This document shows, one piece after another, positions 13,348-33,803 of a stretch of DNA of 64,000 nucleotides. Under the pieces are notes generated by a model. That model did no database searches. It was not told the origin of the DNA and saw only the letters and a program-made list of their open reading frames with translations. The translations under genes were made by a program, and so were the position numbers. How positions within the stretch are numbered: the stretch's first letter is position 1; every line of letters starts with the position of its first letter. Origin of the DNA: Gracilaria domingensis (taxonomy: Eukaryota > Rhodophyta > Florideophyceae > Gracilariales > Gracilariaceae); assembly GCA_022539475.1 (NCBI GenBank), contig VCMS01000017.1:124001-188000 (forward strand), written 5' to 3'.

Positions 13348-16300
13348 TCGACCGTTCGGAAGAGGGCCTTCTTATGGAAGGACCTTTAGTAAGCTCCCGG
13401 CTCGCGTTAGTTCCACTGAACGTCTGCTGTGTACCCGACGTAGGAGGGACAGTTACCACCGCGGCCGAAGAGACGCGATCGATAGCGACTGTGTCTTGAA
13501 GGCCGTCGCGCTCGATAGTGACCGTATGGGAAGTCGATCGCAGAACCTTGTAGGGTGCAGTGGAGCATGGAAAGAGCTTCCGGGAGGCCAGCTCCATGTC
13601 ATCCAATGGTTTCTCCGATAGTGCCCTATCCAGGTATACCATCTCTCCAGTCTTGAAGGACGGCAAAGAGCGGACAGACTTGTCGAAGTCCGCTTTGTAC
13701 CTGAGCTGGGCTCGTGACAAGGTTGCTTTAGCCGTGTGGAGAATATCGTCGATCTTCCGGCGTGCGTACAGTTTAGCCTGCGTAGGAGTCATACCTTCGG
13801 TGATTTCCTGAGGGAACCAAGATGTCTTGACATCCACTGCCAATGGTAACGGCTGCCGAGTCAGCGTAAGATCGAATGGAGTGGTACCAGTGGACCTATG
13901 CAACTGAGTGTTGTAGGCACAAACCAATGGCTCCACGTAGTCATCCCAATCCAGTTGGTGCTCAGCAGTGTAGTGCACCAAACGGTTTACGAGCGTCTTG
14001 TTAAACCGTTCGGCTTGACCATTGGTTTGCGGATGGTAAGCCGTCGTAGTGACATGCTTTATACCAAGCGTGGCACAGATCTGCGAGAAGAACTTGGACA
14101 CAATCTGACTACCATTATCCGTCAGGAGATACAGAGGCAAACCGTAAGGATAAACCCAATGCGTAAGGAACGGCATCGCCACATCCGTTGCGGTAGTGTT
14201 CTTGAGCGGAATAACCCTTGTGGTTTTGGTAAACCTGTCGGTGATAACTAAGATAAACTGGTTGCCGTGTACTGACTTCGGGAGTGGCCCAAGGATATGC
14301 ATCGCGATAAATTCCAATGGTCCGGCCGCTGGAAACAACATGAGCTTAGCCTGATGGCGAGCTCGAGTTCCCCGAACCTTTGAGCAGGAACCGCAGGTCT
14401 TTGCTGTGTTCCGAAGGTCGTTATCCATAAACGGATATTAGAAGTGCTTCCTAAGGGTCTGGTACATGCGAGTACCTCCAGGATGGCCAGCAAACCGTGG
14501 GTAGCGCGCGAGGTAGAGGAAACGTGGCTGCAAGGATTTAGAAATGATCTTCTGGATAGAACCATCCAGTGGAGACCTTCGGCAGAGTAATCCGAAGCGG
14601 TCAAAATCAAACAGGCATCCCTTGGTTCCAACGAGGTGTGCCTTCGCTTGGCAGAATTCGTCTGCTCTCTGAGCCTGTAGGAGATCTTCTAACGTGATTG
14701 GAAGTAGCTCCTTTTCCTCTGGCACAATTGTATTTACCTCTAGGTTCAATTCCTCATGCTGGCATTCTTGTGGTCAGTCCACTAAGTAAACCTCTTCCTG
14801 GTCCAGTTCACTATCTGGACATTGCACCGCGGCGACCAAGAAGTCATCCTCGGGATCCGTTTCGTACCCATCGAGGTTCGGCGTTGGTATTTCGTCATCC
14901 AGGAGGGTATCGTCATCTCCATCGGTAAGTATTCGACTGAGGGAATCAGCAGATTGGTGCTTCACTCCAGGCCTGTAGGTTACATCGTATTCAAACTCGC
15001 AGAGCCTTAGCCTCCACTTCGCTAGCCTGCTGGACGCATCAGTCATGTTCAAGAGCTAGCGGAGGGAGTGGTGATCTGTTCTGATGGTAAATCGAGCTCC
15101 CTCGAGGTAGGACCTCAAGGTTAGCACTGCCCAAACGATGGAAAGGCATTCCTTTTCGGTAGTGCTGTAGTTTTGTTCGGCACTATGCAGAGTCCTACTC
15201 CAGTAACCAATAGGTCGGTAGTTCTTTGGAGACTCCTGTTCCTGTAAAAGAACACATCCAATCTGTCCATCGGAAGCGTCAGTGTCCAAAATATGTGGTT
15301 TATCCGGCTTTGGTAATGCTAGTACAGGAGGATTCGGTAGTTTATCCTTCAAGGTTTGAAATGATTCGTACTGTTCGTCCGTCAGGCGGTCAAATTCCGA
15401 TAGCGTACCCTTTTTAAGCATTTCGTTGAGGGGTGCCACAATCTTCGAGAACCCTTGGAAAAACCTACGGTACACGTTACAGAGCCCAAGAAAAGAGCGC
15501 AACTCTGTGTGGGTTCGAGGTGGTTTTGCCAGTCGGATTGCTTCCGTAGCTCTCTTGGCAACCTGAAGCTTCCCAAGGTGAACCACATGGCCAAGGTAAT
15601 CCACTGAGGCGTGGAAAAAGAAGCATTTTGGTAACTTCAGAGTTATTCCAGCCTCAGGGAGAATCCTCAGAATTGACCTCATATGGGTGAAATGTTCCCG
15701 AACGGTTCTTCGAAAATATGATTACGTCATCCAGATAAACCAAGGCAAACTTCCACTTGACCCTAGATAGGATTATATCCATTGCCCATTGGAAAGTCGC
15801 CTGTGCGTTCATCAAACCAAATGGCATCCGTGTAAAACGGAATAGTCCTTCATGGGTTGTGAACGTCGTCAGGGGCTTTGCGACGTCGTCCAATGGTATC
15901 TGCCAATAGCCCCAAATGGCATCCAGCGTGGTGAATACCGTTGCTTTGCCTAAGGAATCGAGGCAATCGTCCATTCTGGGAATCGGATAGCTGTTCCGTT
16001 TGGTCATTGCGTTCAGCCTTCGGTAGTCAATGCAAAACCTTACGGACCCGTTCTTTTTCGCCGCGAGAATGAAAGGACTTGCCCATTGGGATTCATGCGG
16101 TGGTGCTGGCTCGATTACGCTAGCGTTGCGCATCTTCGCCAGTTGCTCCGTTACGATCTCGCGTCTCTTAAGACCTGTACGGTACGGGTGTTGTTACACT
16201 GGCTTAGCGTCATCTTTAAGGTCTATTCGATGTTTCGTAGCCCGAATCTCTCCCAAGTGGCCAGACCACATGGATTTGAATTCTTGGAGAAGCTCGATGA

Positions 16301-16482: not shown

Positions 16483-16517
16483 CTCCGTCTTTCTCTTGCA
16501 GATGCTAGTTTTTGGGG
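16483..16517 (+). repeat. Left terminal and subterminal repeat of the transposon
   Basis: CTCCGTCTTTCTCTTGCA at 16483-16500 is paired with TGACGTCTGTGTTCTGCA read inward on the minus strand at 33786-33803. GCTAGTTTTTGGGG at 16504-16517 is paired with GCTAGTTTTGGGG at 33739-33751 (minus). The repeat is weak and the spacing differs by about 30 bases between the ends. Confidence 0.55.
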
Positions 16518-16916
16518 AGGGTCGTCCAGAAATTGGCAAGGGTCGTCCAGTAAATTTTTTGAAAAAATATCGAGATCAATTATTTCAAAATTTGGAGATA
16601 ATTGCTTGGGTCGTCCAGAATCGCTGTGCAGTAAATACTGGTGGGTTTTCCACTCGTGCTAGTTCTTTAGTCGAGGGCTACCTGAACTGTATTTCGCGAA
16701 GTCTAGGTTCAGTTTCCATTAAGGTGCACATTACACGATAACTTCTGCGGAATGATACCCTGCAACGCATGGAATACTAGTGCTAGTACAGATGATGCCC
16801 ATTATGAAATCATACCGTTTCATTCGTATCTATTCTTCTATCGACCGCTTTTGCTAACCACTACTTCGCTATATTACATGTACCATATCCCCATGATGGA
16901 GCGGGTGTAGGCGCAA
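16518..16916. other. Subterminal AT-rich region with GGTCGTCCAG repeats
   Basis: GGGTCGTCCAG recurs near 16519, 16540 and 16609. Short subterminal repeats of this sort are typical transposase-binding sites in CACTA-like transposons; binding here is inference. No gene is seen. Confidence 0.4.
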
Positions 16917-17068
16917 TCTGCGGCAGATGCCGCAGACTGCACGTCCACCATCGGCTGTATCGGTAGAACAAATACGCACTCCGAGAGGATGAGGCGCGAA
17001 GCGCCTCATCCTCTCCGTTCCTCATGTAGGGAACCATGCCCAGATGTATGGTTCCCTACTTGAGGAAC
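16917..17068. repeat. Cluster of three perfect or near-perfect hairpins
   Basis: The first hairpin is at 16917-16936 (9-bp arms, TCTGCGGCA). The second is at 16983-17015 (15-bp perfect arms, GAGAGGATGAGGCGC, 3-base loop). The third is at 17017-17037 paired with 17048-17068 (21-bp arms, one mismatch). The arms are conserved while the surrounding sequence is unremarkable. Confidence 0.8.
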
Positions 17069-17110
17069 CTGCACCTGCAACTCGTGAGCTACGTCCGCAT
17101 CAAAAGTCAT

Positions 17111-17627
17111 TTACCTGTATACGCAAGCAGAAAGTATCCATAAGTTAGTCAATGATCCGTTGGATACATTTGAAATGCGATGGAACGTACCATTGATAAA
17201 GCAAAACAGAAACGTTGCGCTAGAAAAGTCGAGGGACCTAGTAACTCGCAAACGGAAGAAGAAGCAGGAAAGGGATCGGTTAGATTACCAGCCCACCATC
17301 ATCGTAAAGCGCGAAAGGTGTCGAAGCGAGAACTCACAAGCAAGGACACCAAGAATGCCCATGCAGCAAACATACCGCAAGATGCGATAAACGAGAGAGC
17401 AGCCTATGTCCCAACCAAGTACCAGAATCGCCTATCCCGAACAGCCAGAGATCGATCTTGAGAGACGAAATGAAATTGGTCGTTTACCTGTATACGCAAG
17501 CAGAAAGTATCCATAAGTTAGTCAATGCTCCGTTGGATACAGTTGAAATGCGATAGAACGTACCATTGATAGAGCAAAACAGAAACGTTGCGCTAGAAAA
17601 GTCGAGGGACCTAGTAAGTCGCAAAAG
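17111..17627 (+). repeat. Direct repeat of about 142 bp (17111-17252 and 17484-17627)
   Basis: Both units start TTACCTGTATACGCAAGCAG and run about 142 bases with only a handful of differences. Their offset is 373 bases. Short basic frames (17160-17390, 17180-17461) overlap the first unit but have no recognisable domain. This is a local duplication in the 5' flank of the transposase gene. Confidence 0.8.
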
Positions 17628-17888
17628 TAACCCAAAGCCTTTTTCCTGCCGTTTACATGTCGCAGAGCGCGAAGAGACGTGGTGAAGATTGGTTAGTTTA
17701 GAACAAAGATACGTAGAAGGAAATGGAAGCACGTACGAAAAGACTGCACGGAAAGACTGCACGGAATACATCCGTGAGATACGGATGCTGTCCGCTTTAT
17801 GGAGGCGTCCGACGAGGGCGGAGAAAGAGAATGAGGTACGCTTCATTTCCGCTTAATGGAATCCTTTCTCAGCACGCTACTTCGTAAT

Positions 17889-17953
17889 CCGTCGTACTTT
17901 TTTCCGCCTTCGCACTTCGTAGCGAGTGCGAGGGCGGAAAAAAGTACGACGGA
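17889..17953. repeat. Long hairpin upstream of the transposase gene
   Basis: Arms of about 28 bp (17889-17916 and 17925-17953) are complementary except for one extra A in the right arm, with an 8-base loop. The arm starts CCGTCGTACTTTTTTCCGCC. It lies 365 bp upstream of the transposase start and could be structural or regulatory. Confidence 0.8.
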
Positions 17954-18317
17954 GCGGAGTAGAACGCGAGGGTGGCACGGATCACGACGGTAACAAAAGG
18001 TCGGACGTCGGACGGGCGGGGGCGGCGGCGGAGGGAAGAGATTTATTTTTCTGTGCGAGATTGGACAAGTGTACAGCGTACAACGTTGGGAATCCACAGG
18101 TTTATAACCAGTGGTAGATAATACGAGAAGTACACCCTTGTGTTGAGGTCGACGTGTACCTACGTTCCTTTTTGAACGAAAGCACGTGATTTAAACTCAA
18201 AATATATTCTCCGTTCTGAGCAAGACGTCGATATTGACTGTCGCTCGACCTCCTTCTCCCTTCGGACGCCCTTCCCTTGCAGTCTTTGTCGTCGTTTCTC
18301 GTTCATTTCTTCTTCCC
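17954..18317 (+). other. 5' flank of the transposase gene
   Basis: GC-rich then mixed sequence containing GGCGGGGGCGGCGGCGG near 18015. No ORF with a recognisable domain. It presumably contains the transposase promoter; no motif is clear enough to call. Confidence 0.3.
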
Positions 18318-21300
18318 ATGGTCTACTACTGTACACATAAGAAGCGTGGGTGCCCCTTCGTTACTCGCCGCGGAGTCTTATCTCTTCAACAGCATGTCAA
18401 CCATTGCCCGTTTCGTCTGAAAGCAGCGCTGGAAGACGACAATAGCCAGGCCATTCGGAGAAGCAAGCGTCTCAAGCTTTCCGCGCCCGCGCCCGCATCT
18501 TCCGAAACGGTCACTGCCCCTTGTCGCCTTCCCGAGCCTCCAGTGTCCGAGGACATCGTCGACCCCACTCCGTGCGCCCCTCCCATTCCGGACACTTCGC
18601 ATTGTGTTTCTCCTTCCCCGGGTCCCGCGTCATTAGAGCGAGAACACGGAAGCAGTTCCCGCCCAGTGCCTTCTGAGGAGGCCCTTGGTGATTTGCATAT
18701 GGATTATCTCACGGTTTGTCTGGCTTCAGTAGCTTCCAACCTTGGTCATCGTGAGGCGGACGAGCTAATTGGGCTACTTCGGGACCCGCGATTCTCGCAA
18801 AAGCGATTCAACGAGACCATAACAAGTTCCAAGCGCTGTACAGAACTAAAGAACGCCATTTTCGAACGATACGCCTCAAAGGACGGTTTCAATCGAAGAA
18901 CTGTCTCGCCAGAAGGATGTAAGTTCAGCGCCATCCTCTACACGAGAGACCCCGTTCAGACACTTGTGAAACAGGTCTAGTTGGCTAACAACGAAAACAC
19001 ATTCTTCCACCCTATACCTCAGACCCACTCCACGAAAATATCTCACCCCATGTCCGGCTCTCTCGCAAGAGACGCCACCTCAAAACTTAAAGAAATGGTC
19101 ATGGGCTCTTTGGATAGTAGAATAGTGTGGTACTCCCAAGAAATAAGTTACAGTGAATCTTTCGTAGGTCTTCTGCAGGTATACACCGATAAGTCTTCAA
19201 CAACTCTAAAGCAAAAATCTGTTACCGCCTATCCTCTTCACCTCATATTTCTCAACTTCTCCGACGAGCTTCGCCGTAAGTGTATCCGTGATGACCTCAC
19301 AGTAGTGGCATACTTCCCTACCACATTGATCGAAGTTTCCGCATTTGAAGCAGACGCAATGCCATTCGTTTCTAGCAAGTCTCTAGGCCAGTCCAGGATG
19401 CAAATCGTTCAAGAATCTCTTCGTCAAGTCCTGGAGCCCATTCTAAATCTCACGCAGAAAGGTTTTCAGTTCATCGGCGAAGACAAACTAAGTCGAGTGT
19501 GCCATCCTCTGCTTGCAAGTTATTGTGCGGATATTCCTGAGGCTAAGGACATTCTGTCCATTCTTCATGGGACCAAAACGGAAATCCCGTGTCATAGATG
19601 CAAAGCCCCTCGCTCATCTTTATGCAGTCCTATTCCCACCTCATTCAACGGACGTTCTCAAAAGCACACGAAAAGCATCCGAAAGACATACACAGCTATC
19701 TTGCAACATGCACAAAAAGACGAGGCGGAAAGACGTCCACGTCGTGCGAAAGAGAGGAGATCTCAAGCGGATACTCTGATGCGTTCAAATTCTATATCTC
19801 TCATTCCTTCGTTCCTCGAAACTTCCGTAAGCCTTGGAATGATCCCGGGATTGTCTCCATACAGTCTGTTCTCATTTGAACCATTACACAACTTGCATCT
19901 CGGCATCTCAAAGCCGATAAAAACGGCCACAATCGAGAGACTGCAGTCAGACACCCTGTGCATCACAATAGGAACATCTGCATCGCCTTCATTTCGAACG
20001 ATACGCACCCAACTCCTCAACCATGCAAACGCAATTCTAGCTGCCATAGAACGCGATTCTTCTGCCAAAGGTTTACATATCGATTTCTCCACGCAGGAGA
20101 AAGGCAAATCTTTGAATGGTATCTTCACGAAAGACGGTCTCCGTGGAATGCTGGAGGCCAAAAACTACAAAGCACTTGACATGGTCTTTCCCTTCATAGG
20201 AGCATTCTTTGACATATGCTGTAGAGAACAGGACGTTGCCCCAATCACTACCGTTTTCTTTCAGTACTCGGACTTGCTTTCGACCTTATTCAGATACAAT
20301 CGTGACCCGTATTGGACTGAAAGCTCTCTCCTGTGTCTTAGTTCGGAGATTGAAGCCTTCAAGCGTTCCGCAACAAAGACTCTGGCGGATTTTCATCCCT
20401 TCAGACTGGGAACTCTGAAGTTTCATCTTCTCGATCATCTCGTGGACGATATTCGCCGTCTGGGAAGTATCAAGTACTACGACGCAGGCATATACGAACA
20501 TGCACACCTGCTATTTAAGAGACACTACAAAAAGACGTCCAGAAGAACAGCAACGGCTGTGGAAGAGACTATTCGCTCCATTGAGCACGGACATGTTAGA
20601 AAGCAATGGAATGGCAATACTCCTTACCAGCGTAATCCAGGTTTACCAGGAACTTCCACACAGCTTCCTCGGTTTGCAATGAGAGGGCGTTCTTTCATTT
20701 TACGAGCTCTTCAACATTGTGTTTCACGTATGTCCAGTTCAAGAACATGGACTGCTGTTAGAGAGATGTTCTCAAGTACGGACACAAGGTCGATTCTTGA
20801 TCAAATTGGTGAACAGGCCCTTCCTCCTTTCCTCAGTCTCGTGAAAGAAACACTGGATGAGCACTCTAGTACATACTTCCCAGAAAAGACAAGGATAACT
20901 CTGGTGAATTCGGCCCTCGTGAAAAGCGGTTTCGTTCCGACTCTTGAACACTTCGATTCGTCTTCTAAGGCACTTAAGCTGGGACGACCCAAATACCCCA
21001 TCATCCAACGTGTTTTCGCTTCTCCACCATTTGGTCTCAGTAGAAAGCCAAATTTTTCCACTGTATTGGTAAGCGGAGAAGATTCAGAGACTTGGGTTGC
21101 CCAGGTAGTCGCTCTGATTCGAATATCTCTCCTTGATTCTGCACTTACCGCACCAGAGGTGGCATTCGTCCGGTATTTCGAGGTTTTACCCCCCGCAACA
21201 AACATCGACCACATATTGAAATGCATATCTTTACGGTGGGCTACAAACGATGAAAAGAACCACACTCTTCCGTTCCCTCGTCATTCCAAAGCGGAGACTA

Positions 21301-21497
21301 TCGTAGAGTTAACTCCTTGGTACGGGATGGTTCCGGCTTCTGCACTACAGGGAACTGTCCATGTTGTTCGATCAAACTACCCTGCTCCACCTTTTTGTCC
21401 TCCACTTCAATGGTTTCAACACCGATTCTACATCAATCAATTCTATCATGATTCAGATGAAGGACCAACTGAGCACGTTGATCTTGTACAGCCTTAA
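18318..21497 (+). CDS. Plavaka-type (CACTA/EnSpm-related) transposase, one in-frame stop
   Basis: From ATG 18318 the frame runs about 1059 codons, with a single TAG at 18978-18980 and no frameshift. The N-terminus is a C2HC zinc finger (C5, C12, H26, C30), as at the start of fungal Plavaka proteins. The core has the family's first acidic block VYTDKSS (Asp codon at 19188), followed by a KSVTAYPLHL...LRRK...VVAYFPT stretch. The second block reads FEPLHNLHLGISK (Glu at 19878 where the family usually has Asp). The third block reads KFHLLDHL...GIYEHAHLLFK (Glu at 20496). The C-terminus keeps the VRYFEV...PWYGMVP...FYINQF tail. The stop splits the zinc finger from the catalytic core; it is either inactivating or read through. 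The end overlaps the convergent neighbour by four bases. Confidence 0.85.
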
Positions 21498-23890
21498 ACA
21501 TTAAGGGCTCCATCCTCTACATGTTCACCTTGTGGTGCCTTTTCTTGTGATCCTGTGCTACTTCCGAAATCGTTCATGTCCATTTCCTTGAACTCCATAT
21601 CCCCTTCCTCGCATTCACCAACGAAACAATCGCTAATAGAACCCAACCTTCGGCTCACACTGTCAATAAAAAAATGTTCTTTCACAGTGAGGTAAAGTCT
21701 TCCGTTCGACGGCATTCGATATCCAAATGTAGCCTCTCTCATGTCATTACCAAGAACCTTAGTCCAATCTTCCGTTGTCGTTCCAAAATTATGAAACTCG
21801 CTGGAATTGGTCCTCAAGACATGTTGCCTAACATCCCCCAGAACATTCTTTAAACACAGAGGTAGCAGTTCAGCAAACTTCTTTGTAAACAGTTTCTGTC
21901 TCTGGCCACCCCTTGACACATCCGTACTTAGAAGGCTCACAACCGTCAACACCCAAGCGTCCAAACGTGCGAGCAACAGTATTGTGCCATCTAAAAAGGT
22001 GCCCGTATCCTTGTCTTCCACATCATACCCAATAAACTCCTTCAGCACTTGTACCCCGACACGGTTTCGGAAGAACAAGTCTTGATCTTCCGTCGGCATA
22101 TCCTCGACATTGTCCGCATTGGAGTACTTTAGACGAACAAATGGGGCTTTTCTCCACCATGAAGTGTTCGGTACACCATTTTCGTCAAGACGCAGTATGT
22201 TCTCCTGCGCTTCCTTCAACTGCATTGTGAGTTCGTCGGCATTCTCTTCTACCAGCTTTGTTCTTCTCCAAATCAGATCGTACCCCAGGAGCAGAAATAG
22301 TTTATCCCTCGTATTTCTCTTACGAACGCCCACGACGTCACTCATGGTCTGCCGCATTCTCTGCCTAAGGCACATATCTGCACAAAGTTCCAGTATACAC
22401 CTGTCGGTAAGAGATGCTTTTCTAATACCTTCCCAGCTCAACTCCTTCAACTCGCTTTCAACCATTTTCTTCAGCAAAGCATCTGGCCCCCCCTCTACCG
22501 ACGGTGTGAACATGCCAAAACTGCCCAAGAGCTCCACGGGGATTTTAGGAACCATGTATGAACCACCTTCCTCCGGCTCAATAAGCCCTTCCCCACTCTC
22601 AGTTGCGTCTTCCACCTTCTCGGCACGGTTACCCCAATTTTGGGTGAGCGACTCACCTTCGAGCCATAGCTCACTTGTTTCTCTCCTTGCCCACGTCAGC
22701 ATGTTGTGATACACTGCTCGAGCAACCCCTCAAAACTCGTCGCACACCTCAATTTTATGCTTCTTTCGACCTGTCTGCCCAGGTTCACCAGCACGTGTAC
22801 TCCTATCTCCCTCCTGTTTCAGTGCCCCTCTTAGCCCTTCAATGACTAGATCCTTCTCTTCAAGCCTCTTTTTCAAAGCCGTACTCTGCTCTTGGGCGAC
22901 CTTCACTAGAATTCCCCGAACCATCAAGTCCTCTTGTAGCGTCTTAACCTTTTCTTTCAAGCAATTCAGTTCATTTAAAAGATCAGGTCTGTTCATAGAG
23001 CTTGAATTCACACCAGTTTGGATATCTTCCGTTATTTCCCTAGCTTCTTCGGCGACAGGCCCCGGTAATGCCGCAGGATTCGGTGTTATTTCGCTATCGG
23101 AACTATCCTCATGTGCCATAGCCTTAGACACGAGAGGCTGCAGGCATTCTGTGTCCACCCTTGGCACGGCTCCGAGCTCCAACTCCCGTGTCTGTTCTCC
23201 TCCATGGCATGGTATATCAGATGAATTGGGCCTCGTACGAGCTGCAACGGCCCCCGTTCTGGAAAGAGGGGAAGGTCGAGGAGTAACTCGTCTATCAGTT
23301 GTCTCTCGATTTCTTATTGTCTTTCTCCCTTGTCCGGACCCATTGCGAGGCATGATACGATTCATAGCGGCCCCATTTCTAGAAGACAGGGATGGACGTG
23401 ACGATCTTAATATACTAGGGCTCTCACGACTTCTCGTCATTGTCCCTTGTTGTCCAGATCCACTGGGCGGCGTAACCCGCGCCCCAATGGCTCCGGTCTT
23501 CGATATCGGCCGGGGACATGAAGGTTTTGGTGTCATACGAACCTCTTCGGTTCCAGTTGTCATGCCCTCCTGTCCTGACCCGCTGGGCCGAGTTACCTCA
23601 TCTTCTTGAGGAGCAGAGACAGATGCACGATTTGCATTATCGGCAGTTGACGGCACGACATCGTTCGCTGATCCACGAATTCTTGACGCAATCCCGGAAG
23701 ACGCTCCGCTGCGAGATGGGCGACAGAGTCCTTTAGAAGGACGCCCACTGACTCTCTCCTTCGTCGAGGACGACTTCCGTTTAGGAAGTGCGGTGCTTGT
23801 AGCCTGATTCGTATCATCCGATGCTCTTCTCTTCTTCTGTCCACTCTTGTTCCGCTGCGTACTATTTCGCTTTCTCGGCGTTATACCCAT
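21494..23890 (-). CDS. Coiled-coil protein of the transposon, unknown function, one in-frame stop
   Basis: Two minus-strand open segments, 22730-23890 (ATG at 23890) and 21494-22714, are in the same frame and are separated by a single TGA at 22730-22732, so I treat them as one gene of about 800 codons. The first 260 residues are basic and Ser/Pro/Arg-rich (GITPRKRNSTQRNKSGQKKRRAS looks like a nuclear-localisation region) with imperfect repeats around PSGSGQ. Residues about 300-370 form a coiled coil (LNELNCLKEKVKTLQEDL). The second half is acidic and helical (LTDRCILELCADMCLRQRM) and matches no family I know. A 15-bp linker between two independent genes is the alternative. Its place between transposase and methyltransferase suggests an accessory transposition or DNA-binding protein. 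Confidence 0.5.
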
Positions 23891-24136
23891 GTTGTGGAGA
23901 TAAACAGGGTAATGAAACGAAATTGTTGGGGAGGGGGGGAGGGGGTGGGGGGGTGCATGGTTCAGATATTCCGGGAGACTCCGCAGTTCCTGCTTTTTAG
24001 GAATTTGAGGTGCCCAATGGGTCGCAAATATCGCCGTTACAGATGAAGAGCTCCAGTGTACATGTACAACAACGCGTATTGCAGGCAGCTGCAACACTCA
24101 CAAGCATATTTACTTTCTATTCGGTACTGAACTCAT

Positions 24137-26514
24137 CTATTGCTCCAATGTCAGAGCCCAGTCCCAGGCGTACTGCTCTCCGTAGTTGAAATACAACTCT
24201 TCGCACCTCTCAATATCTCTTACTGCTCTACAACGAAGTAGAGCATAGTTAGAAAGGTCTGACTTAAACTGTATCACGGACTTTGCTTCCACCACCTGCA
24301 CATTGGCACTTCGAGTGCTGTTTGACCGGGGCTCCGATAAATCGGGATCCCCGGCATGATATCCGGCGTCGTTAATGTAGCCCCCGATACAAAAAGGCGC
24401 CGGGACAATGTAGACTTCGCTCTCCTTTCTATCCTGAGCCTGTCCTGGTCTGTTCCTCAGGTGCAGAAACTCCGTACCAGTCACAGTGACCATCATAGAA
24501 AACAACTTGTACCGCACTGGAGTTGCTCCGAGACAGCCACTTCCATACGTTAAGTGTCTTTCCTTCCGGTTCGTCAGATCCGTGTATACCAAAGTTCCAT
24601 AGAAATGACAGATAGTTTCCCCAGCCAATATCTTATGTTCCGTGAACACCCCCATACCAGCACGGGGATGTCGAATATTAGAAGATGCTATATGTAAGCG
24701 ATAGCGATTGGCTTCAACAGTCAACAGCATATGCATATCCATTAGATTCAGAGCTCCTCGGTACTTCTCCTCCCAAAGATCTACAGTACGCTGTCCACAC
24801 TTCTCGACAAAGTCCCAGTCCTTCCAGTATCTTCCTAGGAACTGAGTAATATGTCCAGGCATCACTTGGTACTGGGGGTAACCAAATGGAGCCTCCCATT
24901 CAAGCCGACCTCGGTCCCGATGTGGAACCCGTTCATAAGTCGTTGAAGCCGCATCCACCACCTCCTGTTCAACTAGGATGTCATTCTTCCCCCCGCAAAT
25001 AACTTCGGCCATAAGAGTCGTTAGATGGTGCTTCGCATGGCTGAAACATGGCCTATTCTTCTCGCACCCCAAGAACTTTCTATGCCTTGTCAGCGATAGG
25101 CACGCCATACCCGTAGAAAAAGTTCCCGCGAACATGTCCATGACAAGATCACCCGGTCTTGTGAAGCGACATATCAACTCATCAACTCTCTCGACTTCTG
25201 CTCCGGTCTGATGTACTGCCCACCTGGTACTGAACTACCTGGCTCATGTACCTTCCATGTCAACTACTCCCCCGCTCTCGGTTTTGGCACCCGGTCAATT
25301 ACATTCCTGTTAGCCGGGAAAGTAGAAGGAATGAAATTGTTCTCCTCAAATGGAGTAAGACTGGCTTCCTCCGATGGTCGCAATCCACGCTTCACCCCAT
25401 GAACGGCGTACTCCGTTACGGGCTGTATCCCAAACTTCCGTGGATTCCCTCCAACATTACTGCGATCCCGGATGAACACCAGTGGATTCGCATCCACTTT
25501 AAACGAAGGCATGAGTTCTGGTTTACCTTCGCTTCCAGCTTCATCTTTCGTACTCGCCGTTTCCCAAAGTATCCTGTGCCAAACATGAAACTGTGCCATG
25601 GCACAGAATATAATGAAGTGCCCACCTGACCGAAGCGCGGAACTTATTAAGTCAGCCGTACGGATCATGTCTTCCTCACTGAAGACATCGTGACCACTAT
25701 TCCGTTTGTTCCTCTTCCTTCGAGTGTTAAAGGGAGGGTCTGTTAGGACAAGCTGTGCCTCACTCCATAAAATCTCACTCTGATTCACAAACGTTTCGTG
25801 TGTGTGCCTCAGGTCCGTCATGTCACAGTTGTACGCTACAAAGTGTGACTTTCTCATCCCCTTCCACACCTTGTCCATATTCATTCGAAGGAGACTGGAT
25901 ATCCCCTTCATGGGCGGCTCAATACCAGTCTTTTGGATGTTGTAACCGGCAACCCGAGATTCATGCTCCGCAAGATTCACCGGCTTCTCGAACTCGTCGC
26001 TATCGGAGCTCACGAGGTTCATATACTCTCGACGAGGTGGGGGTGGGGCAGACTTGGTCGAAGAAGGTTCGGCATTACCGGAAGTTTTAGGGGTTTTCGT
26101 CAGTTCAATATCAGGTTTCGCGTGAATGCCGACATGGAACCCTGCCGCATGACGCATATCCTGTATCGGTTTCCATAGCAACTCCGAAAACTTCTGAAAT
26201 CGAGCAGGCAACTCACCGGAGTCAGAACCAGATACGGTATCCATCCGTATCTCCGAAAACTCTATCCAGTTCCTCATCTGATCAGCCCGTAAGCTATAGA
26301 GGCTATCGTGGGTGCATACGGTTTCGAGGTCTGTCAAAAATTCCTTAGCCAGTATTCGGAGGTTTGTATCGCATTCATCACTCAAGGTCTCCACCGATCC
26401 ACTAGTACTGCTCTGTGGCACATCCTTTGTGTTGAATCGGGTACTCTGGCTGGGCGGGGCATAACCAGACTCCCGTGTCTCTAGCGCCGTATACTTCAAC
26501 GTCTGCATATTCAT
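24137..26514 (-). CDS. DNA amino-methyltransferase fused to a SET domain, interrupted
   Basis: Read leftwards from ATG 26514 (or 26508). After a low-complexity N-terminal half comes VLTDPPFNT (codons at 25726-25740), the catalytic motif IV of DNA N6-adenine/N4-cytosine methyltransferases. RPEQKSREL and then DLVMDMFAGTFSTG (near 25125), the SAM-binding motif I, follow. Motif IV before motif I is the beta-class order. C-terminal to this is a SET domain: GMGVFTEHKILAGETICHFYG, YINDAGYHAGD in place of the usual NHxC block, and NYGEQYAWDW at the end. Between the two halves there is an in-frame TAG (25264-25266) and a one-base frame change near 25175, with protein-like sequence continuing across; an intron is a less likely explanation. 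The start lies only 18 bp from the divergent dioxygenase-like gene. Substrate base and histone target are unknown. Confidence 0.7.
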
Positions 26515-26532
26515 GTAAATGAGTATGGAGCG

Positions 26533-27414
26533 ATGCCGGATATACGGAAAGGAGAGGAACAGAAGTCGTTTGTTCAAATAATCAACGATGATGAAGGATG
26601 GAAGGACGGTAGCGATGGACCATTTGAGGGGAGAGTGATTTCGACACGTTGGGGTACGGTGGAGAAGCCGGAGAATAATGAGGAGCTCAGGTGGGTTGTA
26701 AGGTCGCGTGCTTTACTTGATGTTCGAATGGGTACAATTGCTGCGGCTTTGAGACTATGGGACAATGAAAGAGAAGCTGTGAAGATGTACACTCCGAAAA
26801 CTGGTGGTCGATTTCTGGGGACGACGAGAAAGTGCAAGCGCCAGACGCTGCACACCGACTTCAGTGGTCTGGTTACGAAGGAAACAATGAATACTGGCAA
26901 CCCCGGATACTTTTTAATGGCCTCTGGGAAAGAGGGCTTTCCTCTCTGGGTGAGCGCTGGAAGCCATCAACTGGTGGGGATGAACAACCAACAGTTGCGA
27001 GTGATGTCGGAGGTGTATCCAGCGAAGAAGATAATCATCCCACCGTACTCTGTATTCGTGGGCCGTGGTGATGTGACACATGCTGGAGCAAGTGGGAAGG
27101 ACAAGGTGGATAGGCCCGAGTCTATGGATTTGCTGGTTAGATACCACATGTACATGGTACCAGAGGGCTACGCACTACCTGATGCTGTTCATCGGGTGCG
27201 GGATTTCCGACCCACGTTTGTCAATGGTGAGGAGGAGGAGGAGGCGGAGGATGAACTGTTGTCCGATAAGGAGGGTGGGGCGGTTGACATGGACGAAGAC
27301 CAAGTGGTCGTGGAGATTGGTGTGAAAGCGGACGCCGGTAGAACCGAAGTGCTCGAGAGTAGTAGTGATGACGATTTGCCAATAATGAGGCTGCGAGCGC
27401 CTCGAAGTGGATGA
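26533..27414 (+). CDS. 2-oxoglutarate/Fe(II) dioxygenase-like (double-stranded beta-helix) protein
   Basis: An intact 293-codon frame. The centre has the HxD...H...R pattern of this superfamily: LHTDFSG (His/Asp codons 26851 and 26857), then beta-strand-like blocks (PLWVSAGSH, IIIPPYSVFVGRGD), the distal THAGA (His at 27079), and an Arg in LLVRYHMYM (27139). The C-terminal 80 residues are acidic (runs of Glu and Asp). It is transcribed divergently from the methyltransferase-SET gene with overlapping 5' regions, suggesting shared control. In other systems dioxygenases of this fold oxidise methylated bases or demethylate protein; a role as eraser of the neighbour's mark is inference. It could also be a cupin-like protein without oxygenase activity. 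Confidence 0.6.
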   Translation: MPDIRKGEEQKSFVQIINDDEGWKDGSDGPFEGRVISTRWGTVEKPENNEELRWVVRSRALLDVRMGTIAAALRLWDNEREAVKMYTPKTGGRFLGTTRKCKRQTLHTDFSGLVTKETMNTGNPGYFLMASGKEGFPLWVSAGSHQLVGMNNQQLRVMSEVYPAKKIIIPPYSVFVGRGDVTHAGASGKDKVDRPESMDLLVRYHMYMVPEGYALPDAVHRVRDFRPTFVNGEEEEEAEDELLSDKEGGAVDMDEDQVVVEIGVKADAGRTEVLESSSDDDLPIMRLRAPRSG

Positions 27415-27678
27415 GAATGAGATGATTAGTAAATTATGTGTGTCTTGCGAGTATTAAGAGTAGTATACTATTACAAGGCTATACATATGAACATAGAAAA
27501 GGTGCGGCAGGCTGGTAATTGAACAAATTTCAAACGTCTTTGGTCCAGTTGCGTCTAATTGCAACATGCCAAATGCTCGGTATCGTTAACATCATTGGTG
27601 GCACCAGTCAATTCGCAATTGAACATGTAGCGTCCTAACATTTCTGAAACTGCACTTAAGGTTGCTTTTAAGAGAAGT
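27415..27678. other. Intergenic spacer with AT-rich 3' flank
   Basis: 264 bp between the dioxygenase-like gene and the first phosphatase copy. Nothing recognisable beyond AT-rich trailer sequence. Confidence 0.4.
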
Positions 27679-28590
27679 ATGAAACTGAGAAGTCTATACA
27701 GTTCCTGTCTATGCGGTACTTGTGGCAGTATGGTGACTGTATCAGGAAAAATGGCAGAGGAACAGAGAGACTTGGCGGAAATTTCACCAAATACCTTGTC
27801 TAAGTTCATATATGCCAATGGTTACGGTATATTAAGTTCCGTTGATGGAACGTTGAGAAGAGAAGGAGAGTCAATTCAAGAAGAAGTTGTGAAGTGTATG
27901 AAGTTCATTGACGAACGTGTTGGTTTCGGACTTGTCACAGGGGGTGATGTGGGCGACGTGGAGGGGAAAATGGAAGGACTCGGAGACTATAAGTTTGGTG
28001 TCTCGGCGAATCATGGAGCTTTCCTGCGTTTCTCTGACGAGAGAGAAATTAAGGGTGCATTCAATGATCACACCCTTGACCACACTGTTGACAGACTACT
28101 GTTCCTGGCAAGGGATTTGAATAGGAGGCATGGTATTGTGAATGATGATGACAAGGGGTTCGTGGAGACCAGAAGTGATAGTGGCCTTCCCAATTTCGTG
28201 TACAACAAACTGTGGCAGTGAAAAGAAGAAGTGGATTCTGCTATTGGGGACCTGTTGCAGAAGATGGATGCGTTTGTTATCTATCCCGGCGATAAAAGTT
28301 GCGAAATTGTGGACAAGCGATACACAAAAGGAAGCGGAGGAGAAAATCTTGTGGATAATGAACCGAGATTTATTGATACGGATGACGTCGTGACGTTCGG
28401 AAGTGCTTTGAGCGACGGGCCTTTGCATGAAGTAGGCGTGTACGGCGTTCATGTCAAAGAAGATTGTATCCCGGGTGGAGTACACAACCTGTTCGAAAGC
28501 GTGGAGGATGTACATTCGACAATTATGTTGGTGGCTCTGTTGTACGGCTACGAGGAAAAGCAGCACGATAAAAACCACCATGAATCATAA
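27679..28590 (+). pseudogene. HAD-superfamily phosphatase copy 1, disabled
   Basis: A paralogue of the opposite-strand gene at 28637-29515 and co-linear with it from end to end. One in-frame TGA (28219-28221) sits where the paralogue has Trp. Catalytic residues are also lost: motif I reads SSVDGT instead of SDVDGT, so the nucleophilic Asp is Ser, and TGR reads TGG. The loop GNASND of the paralogue is GSALSD here. The C-terminus is complete. Loss of the nucleophile independent of the stop suggests it was already non-catalytic or has decayed for some time. It converges on its paralogue with 46 bp between the stops. Confidence 0.75.
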
Positions 28591-28636
28591 AAGGGTATTG
28601 AGATATATACGACACTTTTATTACTGAGATCTCATA

Positions 28637-29515
28637 TCATAGATAAGTATTACAGGCATCGTACCACTTGAAACAAATTCCAAGAGCATTTCTAAACCAT
28701 TGACACTTGCATTTTCTGTACCCGTACAGTTCTGCCACCCTTCTGATGGTCTCATGCACGTCCTCCACCCCATCAACAAGATATGTTAGCGCTGCTGGAT
28801 GGTCTTCTCCCTTCACATGAACTGCCAGGGTTGCCATTTCATATAGAGGGCCATCATTGGAAGCATTCCCGAAAGCAACGATTAAATGTGTGTCGAACTG
28901 GGGGTCGTTTTCAACCAAGGCTAGCGCCCCACTATTTTTCGTGAGACGAATGTCCCCTACGTCACAGTTTTCATCTTGAGGGTACGCAACCAGGTTCGGA
29001 AAGGATGTCAACACTTTTGAAATACCGGAGTTAACTTCTGTTTTCCACTTCGACAGTCCATTGTCCGTGAAGTTAGGGAGTCCACTGTCTTTTCTAGTGC
29101 TCACCACTGCTTGTTGACGCTCTTCGTGAAGTCCGTGCGATTCATTTAAGGAGAGTGCAAGTCTCTCAAGTTCGGCTGCACATCTTTCGTAGCCTTCCTT
29201 GTCAAGGTCCTGATCAATTTCGGTACCATTGGATAATCTCACCCGTGCGCCTTGGTTTCCAGAGATGCCAAAAGTGTAGCCACCCAGGTGCTCCATGAAA
29301 CTCTCGGCATCCTCTATATCTCGCCCAGTAGCAATTCCGAAACCAACGAGTGCGTTGATGTACTTCATGTATTTGACTGTTTCGGCAGGAATGTTCTCCT
29401 CAGCTCTTTTCAGAGTACCGTCAACATCACTAATCACGGCGTAGCCATTTTCGAATATTTCGTTAGCCAGCTGCTGGGGAGTTACTTCTTGGGCTCTAAC
29501 TTCTGAGTTATACAT
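28637..29515 (-). CDS. HAD-superfamily phosphatase (trehalose/sucrose-phosphatase-like), copy 2
   Basis: An intact frame (ATG at 29515, with an alternative in-frame ATG at 29593). Motif I is ISDVDGTL (nucleophile plus second Asp), motif II GIATGRDIEDAESF, and a central cap-like region follows. The C-terminal motif AFGNASNDGPLYEMA stands where most relatives have GDxxND, so one metal-coordinating Asp is Asn. The layout (short motif I, large C2-type cap, sugar-phosphatase-like C-terminus) resembles Cof, sucrose-phosphatase and trehalose-phosphatase groups; substrate is unknown. No signal peptide is clear. It forms an inverted pair with 27679-28590, inside the transposon, so it is probably captured cargo rather than a resident gene. 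Confidence 0.7.
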   Translation of the reverse strand: MYNSEVRAQEVTPQQLANEIFENGYAVISDVDGTLKRAEENIPAETVKYMKYINALVGFGIATGRDIEDAESFMEHLGGYTFGISGNQGARVRLSNGTEIDQDLDKEGYERCAAELERLALSLNESHGLHEERQQAVVSTRKDSGLPNFTDNGLSKWKTEVNSGISKVLTSFPNLVAYPQDENCDVGDIRLTKNSGALALVENDPQFDTHLIVAFGNASNDGPLYEMATLAVHVKGEDHPAALTYLVDGVEDVHETIRRVAELYGYRKCKCQWFRNALGICFKWYDACNTYL

Positions 29516-29593
29516 GTTTTGAAAGCTTTCGAAAGGGTTCGTCTTGCAAATGGGTGTGGGTATACGAATGAGAAGGATGTGATTGATGTTCAC

Positions 29594-30110
29594 AAGGTGT
29601 TTCGTAGTATAAAAAGAGTCTAAGGACGACCATATACGAATATTGTAGTACTGTTTTAAAACGATACTAAGACGAGAAGCTTTTGCATCGATTTGCAGTA
29701 AGGAAAGAATGATTTAGTCATAAATTATATGTACGGGTTCAAGTGGGTAAAGAAAACTATGAATATCTTCAACATGAGCTTAGAAATCAAGAAGAGTAAA
29801 ATAACCTCCATTAGGGGTGGAAACCCATAAAAGGTTTACCTTACTTTATACGGGTGCCCCAAGTATTGCAAAGGCTTAGTTCTTCAGAAATATCACAATT
29901 TTGTACTTGTTTCGTTACTAGTATCGTGCACTTTAATGATGTGGAATGACCCTTTTCCATCTAGCAAAATCTTAGCGAAGTATTAGTGATAAGGGATGTA
30001 GGATTTAAAGGGGCATATTTGAACCACAGAAGGACGAACAATATAAGTAATGTAATAGGAACAGGTCATTTCGATAAAGTAACTTTTATGTTTAACTATC
30101 TCTAAAAGGT
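29594..30110. other. Intergenic stretch inside the transposon
   Basis: About 500 bp of AT-rich sequence with no ORF or repeat that I can support. It contains the presumed promoter of the HAD gene on its left side. Confidence 0.4.
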
Positions 30111-31044
30111 TTACAACACCGAAAAGTCATGTGTTCTAACCTCAAAGCTGGGGGAATGGGGAGGGGGATAACTTTTCCTTAACAACGTTGACGTAGTTTG
30201 TATGAAAAGGAGCGGGGTCACCGCCTACAATGTTTCTTTCTTGGCGGGAAAAGTCGTAGAAGTACGCGTTCCTAAACTGAAAGTCGGAGAAAGAAGTAGG
30301 GAAGCCAAAGAGAGTTTTCCCATGTGCAAGAAGTCGCCCAACGGTCTCTTCCAGGTTGAAATTAGTACCTGTCTAAAGCGAAACTATCTTCAACAGCTCT
30401 TTCATTATTGTGAGCACAACCGTACTGCACTCCGTAGCGACTACGTCCATAGGAATGAAACCTCTTGAGGCCCCGACGATGTTGGACGCTGATAGCCACA
30501 CGAGCTTCTCATAATAGCTTACGAGAAATGTGTCTTCGTCGACAACCCCGCAAGTGAGACCCATAGAGCTAAACCTGTCTGCAACGTTGGAGGCCCACTT
30601 TCCTGTTGCGACAGTGAGACCATCCGGACTTTGAGGAGTGACACCATCCTGCGGAGCTGCGTTTCTTGAGGGGACACCAACGTATAGGACAACTTTTGAA
30701 CATTTGTCCACACCGAGCTTCGAAACCAATGGTATGATGTCTCCATTCTGGAAGAAAACGAGATTCTCTCTGAGCGAATAAGGGCAAGCCTGAATTACGG
30801 TCTCCAGGGTGTTCGTTCTTCCACAAACTAGTATCGGTACATCAGAAAGATGAGAGGTAGCATCCATGCTGCAGAATTCGTGTGCAGAAATGACCGTATC
30901 TTCTTCGTTCGCCAGCATGGTACCTATACGCCCCCTTTCAACAATAACGGCCCGAGTCCTTCGGGCGGGAGATGAGGCCTGAGGGACGTCAGAGTATCTG
31001 GGACTCGGAGGCGGAGTGGGAGGCATGTCGGACTGGGAGTTCAT
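30111..31044 (-). pseudogene. Ketopantoate-reductase (ApbA/PanE)-like protein with one in-frame stop
   Basis: ATG at 31044; the frame reads to TAG at 30373-30375 and then continues to a TAA at 30111-30113 with clearly homologous sequence. The first part has a Pro-rich N-terminus, then a Rossmann-like segment with DVPILVCGRTNTLETVI and LRENLVFFQNGD (the QNG block of the PanE fold) and GLTVATGKWASNVADRF. The part beyond the stop has FGFPTSFSDFQFRNAYFYD and GDPAPFHTNYV, which fits the C-terminal helical domain of a family conserved in algae and plants. There is a single nonsense change and no frameshift. The reaction catalysed by this family is not known to me. It lies within the transposon and looks like a captured host gene. 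Confidence 0.6.
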
Positions 31045-31441
31045 TGCAAGTGTTCGAATGTTTTTGTGTGACGATAGAAATGGAAGATGGGGCGGAGAAC
31101 TGCTGGTGTAAAGAGTGGTACTTAAGTACAAACGGTTGGGAAGCGCAGAACGGGAACATGGTTCACTTTGTGAAAGTGAGCGAAATGTATGATATGTGAT
31201 CGTACTGAATGAATGATAGGGCTTGTATGAGACGACAAGCCACAAAGTGTGACGATGTTTTATGAAAAGTAGGTGGAAGAGTAGAAAGTGTACAATGAGT
31301 GAAACTGATTTCGAACCTGAGTTGTAAAGTAGTTGTAAAGTACGAGTTACGGGGAGCTTGAATACAGGATGAAAGGAGCCATTTTGGCTTCATAAATGAC
31401 GTGAACGGGTTTTATAGCTTCACTCGGATTGCCATAATTAA
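31045..31441. other. Upstream region of the reductase-like gene
   Basis: About 400 bp with only short overlapping frames and no recognised motif. It probably holds the promoter of the gene at 30111-31044. Confidence 0.35.
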
Positions 31442-31762
31442 AAGGATGGAGTTGGGTTGCGCCCGAATACGTCTATAAAGGTCGTAGAAGCACTTATGAA
31501 GGAAGGAGTTGTAGACATGTTATTGTTGATGACGGTGGAGCCAGGGTTTGGAGGACAGGCGTTTATGGAGGGTGTTCTTGATAAGGTGCGACATGCAAGG
31601 GAGTTGTACCCAAGAATAGGGATACAAGTGGATGGGGGTATTGCACTGAGTACTGTGAAAGGAGTAGTGAAGGCCGGTGCAAACATTTCAGTTGCATGAT
31701 CTGCCATCTTTGGCTCGAGTAACCCAGCTCATGTCATAGCTGGTTTTCGAAAGGTTGGTTAG
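31442..31762 (+). pseudogene. rpe: 5'-truncated ribulose-phosphate 3-epimerase fragment
   Basis: The C-terminal 40-45% of ribulose-5-phosphate 3-epimerase (pentose-phosphate and Calvin cycles) is readable: VGLRPNTS, then LLLMTVEPGFGGQAF (the active-site MTVEPGFGGQ loop), VRHARELYP, IQVDGG, KAGAN. An in-frame TGA at 31697-31699 stands where the family has Gly, and homology resumes with SAIFGSSNPAHVI to a stop at 31762. The N-terminal half is missing; upstream there is a stop in frame. The clean 5' truncation and its place inside a DNA transposon suggest capture of a host-gene fragment. Confidence 0.75.
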
Positions 31763-31779
31763 AGATAGTAGCATAAATT

Positions 31780-32140
31780 TATTGATTATTACATTGTTAC
31801 CTTTACGTGTTATCACGACTATATTCTCCGTCTTCATTGGAGATGTATTTCTCTTGTATCACAACCGGGAAAGGATGTGAGAGAACATCAATATATCCAA
31901 AGTGGACGCTGAGAGGGATGATGAACTACTCTACGTGCTATCATTGTTACCCATCCGGTGTCGAGTGGTGACATATTCTTTTTTTGTCACAACCCATAAA
32001 GGATGTGACGGAAGAAGAACATGCCCCCAGTTGAGACAGAGGGTGAGCAACTCTAAGTACAATCACTAGTCCCTAGCTTGCCTCCACTGGCAATATCTTC
32101 CTGTTTTGCTATAACCATCGAGTGGGGTTATGGTGGAAGA
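31780..32140 (+). repeat. Three diverged ~125-bp tandem units, each with a stem-loop
   Basis: TCACAACC...GGATGTGA occurs at 31859-31880 and 31986-32009, and ATAACC...GGTTAT at about 32111-32131. Spacings are 127 and about 124 bases. Flanking sequence between the stem-loops is also alignable, so these are tandem units whose stems vary while pairing is kept. Confidence 0.65.
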
Positions 32141-32402
32141 GAAAAATATCGCCGGTCGAGGCGAGGTGGGTGGGGATTATGTGAGCGCGAAAGAGGAGAC
32201 AGAGAGGTGGCGCTCAAATAGTGGAAGGTGCGAAGGTGTACAGTAGATGTTTTGGCGGGAAATGGGATGAGGGAAACAGGAACAATCATGGTGCTGGATA
32301 TAGCCCATGTGGTTGGACAGTGGGGGTGGACAGCACAGTTTAGCTCGATTGCCCTGTATCGCAGCGGAAACTTCGATCCAACTACTACTTCTTCTTCTGA
32401 AG

Positions 32403-33332
32403 ATGTTGAACGGATACGTGAAGGATGAGGAGCTGTTGGCGCTGTTGGAGGGGGAGGAGGTACCGCAGACGCCGTCATCAAAGCGGGAAGAGGACGTGAT
32501 TACGGCGGCTGGTCGGATGTCGCAGAAGAAGAAAGTGGCTGATGAAGGAAAGAAGTGTGAGGCGAGGATAGGGGATGGTGATGAGGTGGAGAAGGGTGTA
32601 GAATTGGAGGTGGAGGGGGTCGCAATGGAGAGAAGGGGTGCGGTGCATCTGAGTCAGTTAGAGGTTGGAGACCAGATAGAGAGTGGGGGCGGAGAGGGTG
32701 ACAGGGAGATGCGGTTTGTGGGGGAGATGAAGGCGAGAGTGGGGATGTTGGGGTTGGTGATGAAGGAGCAACTGGACGATGGAGTTGTGGAGATTGTAAC
32801 GGAAATGGGCGGTGTGGTGCTGAGTGGGGGTGCTAGTGGTGTTTCGGTTGAGGCGATTTCGAGCCTGCGGAATTCGTTGTCGGTATTGGGAGTGGAGATG
32901 AGAAATCATGTGTATGGGATAGTGGAGTGTGCGGGAAGGGAGGTTGGAGAGTTGCGGGAGGAGAATAGGGTTCTGAACGAGAGGTTGGACGTGCTGGAGA
33001 AGGAGGTGAAGGAGCTGGGTAAGAGGCAAAGATTGGTGGAAGAGGAGACGGTGAAAGGAGGTGTGGAGGGAAAGACGGAGAAGGGAAGTGTGGGAAGGGT
33101 GGCGGTTTAGAAGGGGTCTCCTGTGACACCGAAGACAAAGGGTGGTGGGGTTGGGGATGGGAAGAGCCGTCTGAAGAAGAGGCGTAAGGAGATGAAGAAG
33201 GTGGTCGAGGAGGTGCGGCGGGAGGGAGTCGGAGCTCCGGTGGTGACTGGGTTTAGGAGTGCGGCGGAGGTAGCGCGGAATGCGAAGGGGATTCTGAGGG
33301 GACAGGAGGAGAGAAAGATGGGAGGGATTTGA
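32403..33332 (+). CDS. Coiled-coil ORF near the right end of the transposon, one in-frame stop
   Basis: ATG at 32403 opens a frame that meets TAG at 33108-33110 and continues in the same frame to 33332. Strong purine bias on the plus strand sets it apart from its neighbours. The protein is Glu/Lys/Val/Gly-rich. A coiled coil is evident at about residues 180-220 (REENRVLNERLDVLEKEVKEL), followed by a basic tail (SRLKKRRKEMKKVVEEV). I recognise no family. It could be a second accessory protein of the transposon or captured cargo. Confidence 0.4.
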
Positions 33333-33738
33333 AGCCGTTTTGGGGCGAGGCGGGTATACGAGAAGGGGGAGGGTTATACACCTGACTTCTACAAAATGAC
33401 GTTTGCGGAGGCGGAGAGAGAGGATGCGAACGCGTGATGGGCGAGAAATGGGTAACTAGCGGGGGTGGTGTGGACTGGGAAGAAGCGATGGGATGATTGA
33501 GGTGGGATGAGTTGCGATTGGCATTGCAACATGGGAGAAAATGGAAAGGCAAACTAGCACGAGTGCAGTTTTGAGAGAGGGTCGCGGAAAAGAATGAATG
33601 GGGTGGTGCGGCGAAGTAGAACCTCTACAAAAACTAGGGGACCCAAGAACTAAACTGCGCGAAATTGAATTTAATATTCCAAAATTTCTTAATTTTTTGA
33701 GTGCCAGCCTCTGCTACCCGCTCGCGCGCACCAAATAG
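33333..33738. other. Right subterminal region of the transposon
   Basis: About 400 bp with G-rich plus-strand composition and then an AT-rich block. Short frames occur on both strands without recognisable domains. The minus-strand frame that enters element B's protease region from here is transposon sequence, not part of the protease. Confidence 0.4.
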
Positions 33739-33803
33739 CCCCAAAACTAGCTTAGTTTCCAAAGCGAACAGACTATATTCCACTTTGCAGAACACAGACG
33801 TCA
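33739..33803 (-). repeat. Right terminal and subterminal repeat of the transposon
   Basis: Read inward on the minus strand: TGACGTCTGTGTTCTGCA (33803-33786), then GCTAGTTTTGGGG (33751-33739). These pair with 16483-16500 and 16504-16517. TA follows at 33804-33805, after which element B's protease region resumes. Confidence 0.55.

Follow-up and report, generated by a model that had tools for sequence, protein, structure and literature searches.

The 64,000-nucleotide stretch analysed here (the window; positions 124001-188000 of contig C17 in a 77.9-Mb genome of 680 contigs) holds what is left of two divergent genes carried by a large DNA transposon of the Plavaka superfamily, found in Gracilaria domingensis or a very near relative. 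The nearest annotated proteins, at 95, 89 and 97% identity, bear that species name. One gene encodes an amino-methyltransferase joined to a SET domain (MTase-SET), and the other a protein that combines a ParB-like stretch with a dioxygenase-like part (ParB-oxygenase). Beyond this architecture, we observed linkage of MTase-SET to the transposase in two element families, linkage of the oxygenase gene, seen in the first family and at a single second-family locus, and conservation of the sequence motifs. On balance we favour the view that the two genes would form a conserved, transposon-borne module modifying both DNA and chromatin, probably for self-marking or as a defence against silencing. The pieces of the two genes in the window, and the junction between them, are as follows.

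25264-26577, minus strand: MTase-SET piece with motif IV (DPPF), lacking the first part of the protein, which is present in L009 and L010
24137-25177, minus strand: C-terminal piece of MTase-SET with motif I and the SET domain (PF01555, E = 3.8e-7; PF00856, E = 9.7e-7)
26533-27414, plus strand: C-terminal part of the ParB-like/dioxygenase-like protein with the HxD, H and R core, without the ParB-like stretch or the beginning of the oxygenase part
26518-26528, no strand: internal deletion junction, with a loss of 4.7-5.4 kb that varies with the copy used for comparison

The sequence-only reading had placed motif IV (DPPF), motif I (DMFAGTFSTG) and a SET domain on the minus strand, and all three were located there, at 25729-25740, at 25109-25138 and, for the SET motifs, between 24664 and 24179, respectively. 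Within the open reading frame (ORF) at 24137-25177 the matches to N6_N4_Mtase (PF01555) and to SET (PF00856) both exceeded the curated Pfam cut-offs, which bears out the SET assignment at the level of family profiles (bit score of 29.6, and of 32 in copy C465, against a cut-off of 22.4); the ORF at 25264-26577 taken alone gave sub-threshold methylase matches (0.018 and 0.054). That the two domains belong to a single gene did not hold for the window, in which stops lie between the two ORFs, and did hold for copies C465 and C164, in each of which MTase-SET is a single 1045-aa ORF. An intron joining the two window ORFs was rejected because these other copies hold one open frame. In C465 the N6_N4_Mtase match covers residues 506-743 (3.8e-15) and the SET match residues 873-1032 (1.7e-7), and approximately 250 N-terminal residues of the C465 and C164 proteins are absent from the window copy. 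Motif IV precedes motif I and the N6_N4_Mtase family profile is matched, an order that we take to be that of the beta-class amino-methyltransferases; profile matches in the PDB for this part were DpnA, CcrM and MboIIA. Canonical SET domains carry an NHxC motif and a catalytic tyrosine, and N968 and Y1031 were nearly invariant among 15 aligned MTase-SET sequences, although the motif itself reads IND.

The two genes had further been read as an intact pair standing head-to-head and 18 bp apart. The window copy is not intact, since both genes lack their 5' parts and MTase-SET is split by stops, and the spacing and the orientation fared differently. On the MTase side homology to other copies ends at 26528, and on the oxygenase side it begins again at about 26518, with AATG microhomology read at the junction and a stretch of 4.7-5.4 kb missing relative to five copies (C60, C34, C329, C32 and C109, the last of which has a run of N there). 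Comparison of these sequences thus identifies the 18 bp between the ATG at 26514 and the ATG at 26533 as a deletion scar, and a single deletion as what removed the 5' ends of both genes. The orientation was borne out elsewhere. We compared 117 MTase loci (119 matches less two second pieces; the best of 674 candidates) with 134 oxygenase loci (the best of 586 candidates), so that unpaired loci say little. Among these loci, an oxygenase locus lies no more than 15 kb from 31 of the MTase loci, and 28 of the 31 pairs, the window included, are head-to-head. The 27 such pairs outside the window have 5.5-7.9 kb between the matched parts, and the three remaining pairs lie 10-13 kb apart and are not head-to-head. 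The divergent orientation is therefore genuine in undeleted copies, and the pairing exceeds chance because both genes are repeated (at least 119 and at least 134 matches) and have relatives in other records. The homology stop at 26528 had also allowed the oxygenase to be an unrelated sequence beside a truncated element; the paired copies rule this out. In C34, MTase-SET starts at 10805 and the first facing ORF, which begins like the annotated protein P0027, at 12342, giving a spacer of ~1.5 kb. This spacer holds repeats in both orientations at element positions ~10.9-12.1 kb, which are candidate cis sites for the ParB-like domain.

On the plus strand, the HxD...H...R arrangement noticed in the ORF at 26533-27414 was located as HTD within LHTDF (26848 onward), H within DVTHAGA (27070 onward) and R within LVRYHMY (27133 onward). 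This ORF encodes the last 293 residues of a protein that is 1033 aa or longer, and in copy C60 the oxygenase forms the C-terminal part of a 1033-aa frame. Among eight aligned oxygenases, two of them from the Gracilaria element, HxD was present in 8/8, the distal H in 7/8 (all but P0032) and R in 7/8 (P0030 has G). The N-terminal stretch of the C60 protein gave weak PHROG ParB-like matches (0.0017 and, for a second model, 0.092; L028) and contains FIVDGLHRLKA, and protein P0024 gave a stronger one (6.2e-5); DGxHR occurs in the element protein, P0024, P0028 and P0029 alike, and P0028 and P0029 align with the element protein over both the ParB-like and the oxygenase parts. Pfam ParB_N was not matched by the element's ParB-like stretch, in which GmrSD_N scored below threshold (0.17), and a profile of this stretch found no credible match in the PDB. 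In P0024 the ParB-like stretch stands ahead of a methyltransferase and a SET domain in a single chain, an architecture that seems to tie the MTase-SET and ParB-oxygenase proteins together. Membership of the oxygenase in TET/JBP was rejected because no profile matched; a genome-wide Tet_JBP search was likewise empty, and was a weak one (controls recovered 1/14, below the cut-off). Diverged PE-type TET/JBP members also escape sequence tests, according to the available text of the source, but carry HxE (PMC12730594), unlike the HxD of the element oxygenase. The annotated G. domingensis proteins P0026 and P0027 omit the oxygenase core, apparently spliced out by gene prediction, and the names given to them (Mediator 15-like, SasA) look wrong.

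The proposal that the pair is transposon-borne is supported by termini, 2-bp target duplications and a Plavaka transposase (PF18759). The features that define the element in the window are listed below.

16486-33800, no strand: Plavaka-type DNA transposon, internally deleted copy of 17.3 kb, with ends set by comparison with other copies
16486-16508, plus strand: left terminus, one mismatch away from the common form CGTCTGTCTCTTGCAGATGCTAG
33778-33800, plus strand: right terminus (TTCCACTTTGCAGAACACAGACG), with flanking TC/TC read as a 2-bp target duplication
18234-21497, plus strand: Plavaka transposase, two ORFs in the window (18234-18980 and 18981-21497; PF18759, 2.4e-17)

Copies have a common left end, CGTCTGTCTCTTGCAG..., and the right end ...GCAGAACACAGACG is common to the window and C34 copies, so that the element termini read CGTCTGT...ACAGACG. 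Across the genome we counted 572 left and 584 right ends (up to 3 mismatches), and reversed control patterns gave 0. A 2-bp target duplication was found at 9/10 sampled left-right pairs and in the window, not at C34, for a total of 10/12 copies. The full extent is seen in the C34 copy (22,644 bp end to end), in which interruptions break the frames of the transposase, MTase-SET and ParB-oxygenase, while the transposase of copy C60 is a single 1059-aa ORF (PF18759, 2.7e-19; cut-off 26.3 bits). Pooled over copies, the coding content comprises the Plavaka transposase, MTase-SET, ParB-oxygenase, two HAD-like hydrolases and further ORFs. Plavaka transposases carry C(2)C and H(3-4)H motifs between the catalytic D and E, and a CHRC stretch is visible in the unaligned transposase sequence. 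In C32 (L045/L042/L043) the left end of one copy abuts the cut right part of another, a nested or tandem insertion.

A second family carries the same association. The PF01555 genome scan listed at least 150 matches (328 candidates), some of another type, and on C12 it revealed a second MTase-SET (L112, 855 aa read) that is 33% identical to that of the first family. This family comprises 53 loci, counted from 63 matches after 10 second pieces were set aside, and at 17 loci identity to the C12 gene is as low as 59-77%. Among the 123 Plavaka matches listed, one lies within 10 kb of 21/53 of these loci, against ~1.7 expected under random placement (a crude null, as elements nest); 20 of the 21 are convergent with it, 19 at 4.6-5.9 kb and one at 7.6 kb. 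In the first family a listed Plavaka match lies within 10 kb at 15/117 MTase loci, 14 of them convergent. At C12, the single second-family locus read, a ParB-oxygenase relative occupies the facing strand in the same position as in the first family (28% identical in 688 columns at 2e-70 and 44% identical in 97 columns at 5e-26; the reading frame changes within it), so that the two genes are neighbours at this locus as well as in the 27 pairs outside the window. A search of the genome with P0029 returned at least 42 matches at 38-41% identity, and C12 was not among the best 42 of 762 candidates. Four N6_N4_Mtase matches fall outside both MTase-SET family lists (C382:10484, 36683 and 110684; C6:483851).

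The position of MTase-SET beside the transposase in two families, together with the repeats of the divergent spacer, fits control of transposition, in which methylated termini or the repeat-rich spacer would gate transposase binding and the oxygenase would reset the gate after replication. Dam methylation gates bacterial Tn10 in a comparable manner. This role would leave the SET and ParB-like parts unexplained, and we regard it as quite unlikely.

The reach of the MTase-SET pairing beyond this genome was assessed on 25 homologues, including proteins named for Chondrus crispus and Pyropia yezoensis. At E<=0.01 the N6_N4_Mtase profile matched 25/25 and SET 23/25, the Chondrus protein included, so the pairing does recur in another red alga, while the Pyropia protein stops before SET. 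The sole viral relative is a 265-aa methylase. The frames of the 44 prokaryotic relatives do not exceed 495 aa, which leaves no room for an additional SET domain, and no SET search was run on them. A DPP motif was found in 39 of the 44 (the other five could not be judged), and no simple ParB-like motif lay upstream of it in 39/39 judgeable relatives, leaving a ParB-methylase origin of the MTase part unsupported there; P0024 and the literature keep such an origin alive. Selection was estimated as the ratio of nonsynonymous to synonymous polymorphism (pN/pS) in seven copies (the window and six others), picked for linkage and not for protein score, and the values blend selection before insertion with drift after it. 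MTase-SET as a whole is under purifying selection (0.51, 0.42-0.64), and the transposase gave 0.60 (0.49-0.74). A value of 0.37 for MTase-SET in 18 sequences was set aside, because 11 of these had been chosen by protein score and three of those duplicate another's copy.

Several observations weigh against a functional module that modifies DNA and chromatin. The SET motif position reads IND in the element protein. In the same seven copies neither the SET domain alone (pN/pS 0.65, 0.34-1.47) nor ParB-oxygenase (0.74, 0.54-1.02) could be distinguished from neutrality. No ParB model was matched by P0028 or P0029 in Pfam and PHROGs, nor was ParB_N (PF02195) matched anywhere in the genome; the oxygenase part matched no Pfam family, Tet_JBP included, and found no credible match among PDB sequences. 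Finally, MTase-SET and the oxygenase are dispensable in cis, as judged from the single ~10.4-kb copy read (L066, C8:198001-207950), which lacks MTase-SET and the oxygenase part yet retains both ends, as located by terminus searches, and the greater part of the transposase region. Several further left-right pairs are of similar length.

In the module that we favour, MTase-SET would write an amino-methyl mark on DNA, with adenine more likely than cytosine as the target; N6-methyladenine (6mA) is probable because of the DPPF motif and the relationship to DpnA and CcrM. These adenine DNA methyltransferases are the closest solved sequence relatives and share DPPF/Y and the order of motif IV before motif I, but they are prokaryotic and without SET, and the Gracilaria protein has a long extra N-terminal region. 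The SET part would add a lysine methyl mark, probably on histones, in the same place, and the ParB-like part would direct the dioxygenase to element DNA, there to oxidise or remove a methyl mark; lysine methylation, oxidation and ParB targeting are each predicted from domain and motif content. With both proteins the element could govern the state of its own chromatin, and the most likely benefit would be evasion of host silencing or recognition of its own DNA as distinct from the host's. The oxygenase would more likely act on the mark made by the element itself than on ordinary 5-methylcytosine: a whole-genome search with PF00145 (C5 DNA methylase), in which controls recovered 10/14, gave no match, although split exons could hide one, and an eraser of 5-methylcytosine, as proposed for fungi, is for this reason less natural here. 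The PF01555 matches show that the genome profile search works in this assembly. A search for MT-A70 was also empty but carries no weight, none of its controls having been recovered. The balance of 0 PF00145 against at least 150 N6_N4_Mtase matches is unusual for a eukaryote. A more specific version, which we hold as possible but doubtful, is a self-contained epigenetic system in which one polypeptide would couple methylation of DNA adenine to that of histone lysine at one site, with the DNA mark erased or converted by a ParB-targeted dioxygenase, making a 6mA-based, element-encoded write/erase circuit in a red alga without detected C5 methyltransferases.

The direction in which such marks would act is addressed by the PDB profile matches of the SET part, which were to KMT2C (best), SETD8, EZH2 (as chimeras) and PBCV-1 vSET (an H3K27 methyltransferase according to its deposition). 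The marks could restrain the element itself, heterochromatin-type lysine and DNA methylation silencing or limiting it so that copy number stays tolerable, with the oxygenase releasing this restraint at a particular stage. Against this self-restraint stand the >570 element ends, which look unrestrained, and the best SET match, KMT2C being an H3K4 rather than a silencing enzyme. It draws support from the EZH2 and vSET matches and, as its best argument, from bdelloid rotifers, in which the part of the report available describes bacterial-type N4C methylation coupled to SETDB1 H3K9 methylation that silences transposons (PMC8885841). We consider self-restraint unlikely. By analogy, anti-silencing or self-marking is our first choice among the candidate roles, because Kojima, in the text available, so interprets the fungal elements (PMC12730594) and because the best SET matches are to KMT2C.

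Comparison with known systems places the Gracilaria element nearest to several partial precedents, each cited here from those parts of the source that were available. Fungal Plavaka elements have 2-3 bp target duplications, and some carry TET/JBP genes (Kojima 2025, PMC12730594); the Gracilaria element resembles the latter in its Plavaka-type transposase, 2-bp target duplications and internal dioxygenase-like gene. It differs in its red algal host, in carrying MTase-SET, in an oxygenase that is unrecognised as Tet_JBP and joined to a ParB-like stretch, and in its termini (CGTCTGT..ACAGACG, compared with the published TGT..ACA or CATCA..TGATG; PMC12730594). HarbingerS and MuDR of Phytophthora, cited in the same paper, are likewise DNA transposons that encode a SET-domain protein, but they belong to other superfamilies, and the available text mentions no DNA methyltransferase in the same polypeptide (PMC12730594). 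The bdelloid system shares a bacterial-type amino-methyltransferase in a eukaryote and its tie to lysine methylation, which is functional there and, as predicted from sequence, by fusion to SET here; N4CMT and SETDB1 are two host proteins that silence transposons, in contrast to one transposon-borne polypeptide in Gracilaria (PMC8885841). The Bacillus cereus fusion Bce_0392 joins a ParB domain to an adenine methylase, as P0024 seems to, and neither SET nor an oxygenase is mentioned in the accessible portion of that report (PMC5512222). A full-text literature search (titles and abstract openings, with subscription papers mostly out of reach) returned no description of a red-algal MTase-SET or ParB-dioxygenase transposon module. 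Transposons with one epigenetic enzyme are already known. A conserved pair in which one chain apparently writes on both DNA and protein, with a putative eraser facing it, would offer a natural test of the coupling between DNA and histone marks and of the ways in which elements evade or use silencing. Hundreds of element ends are present in this single 78-Mb genome, and MTase relatives occur in Chondrus, there with SET, and in Pyropia, where SET was not found.

The remaining coding features of the element in the window are the following.

21494-24097, minus strand: element ORFs without a Pfam match, two in the window (21494-22714 and 22730-24097)
27679-28590, plus strand: HAD-hydrolase-like cargo gene, split by a stop into ORFs 27679-28221 and 28231-28590 (C60 copy, PF08282, 1.8e-4)
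28637-29593, minus strand: second HAD-hydrolase-like cargo gene (C60 copy, PF08282, 2.6e-13)
30373-31245, minus strand: element ORF, no above-cut-off Pfam match (pN/pS 0.99 in six copies, with few differences)
32307-33110, plus strand: element ORF, possible coiled coil from weak matches, no above-cut-off Pfam match

That two HAD hydrolases and other ORFs travel in the element suggests a further role for the enzymes as host-acting cargo, which would alter the chromatin of the host or give protection from viruses or other elements. Giant Plavaka-flanked, cargo-bearing repeats do exist in Amoebidium and resemble the Gracilaria element in being very large, although the cargo named in the available text consists of tyrosine recombinases (PMC11244446). 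The retention of MTase-SET beside the transposase in two families is a better fit to element fitness, and we consider host-acting cargo very unlikely. A role of the two HAD-like hydrolases in nucleotide or base metabolism is a guess. The ORF part at 21494-22714 gave a pN/pS of 0.60 in 10 copies. Outside the Plavaka element, the window also contains a retrotransposon integrase core at 13301-14428 (minus strand) and an RNase H with integrase at 58206-59348 (plus strand).

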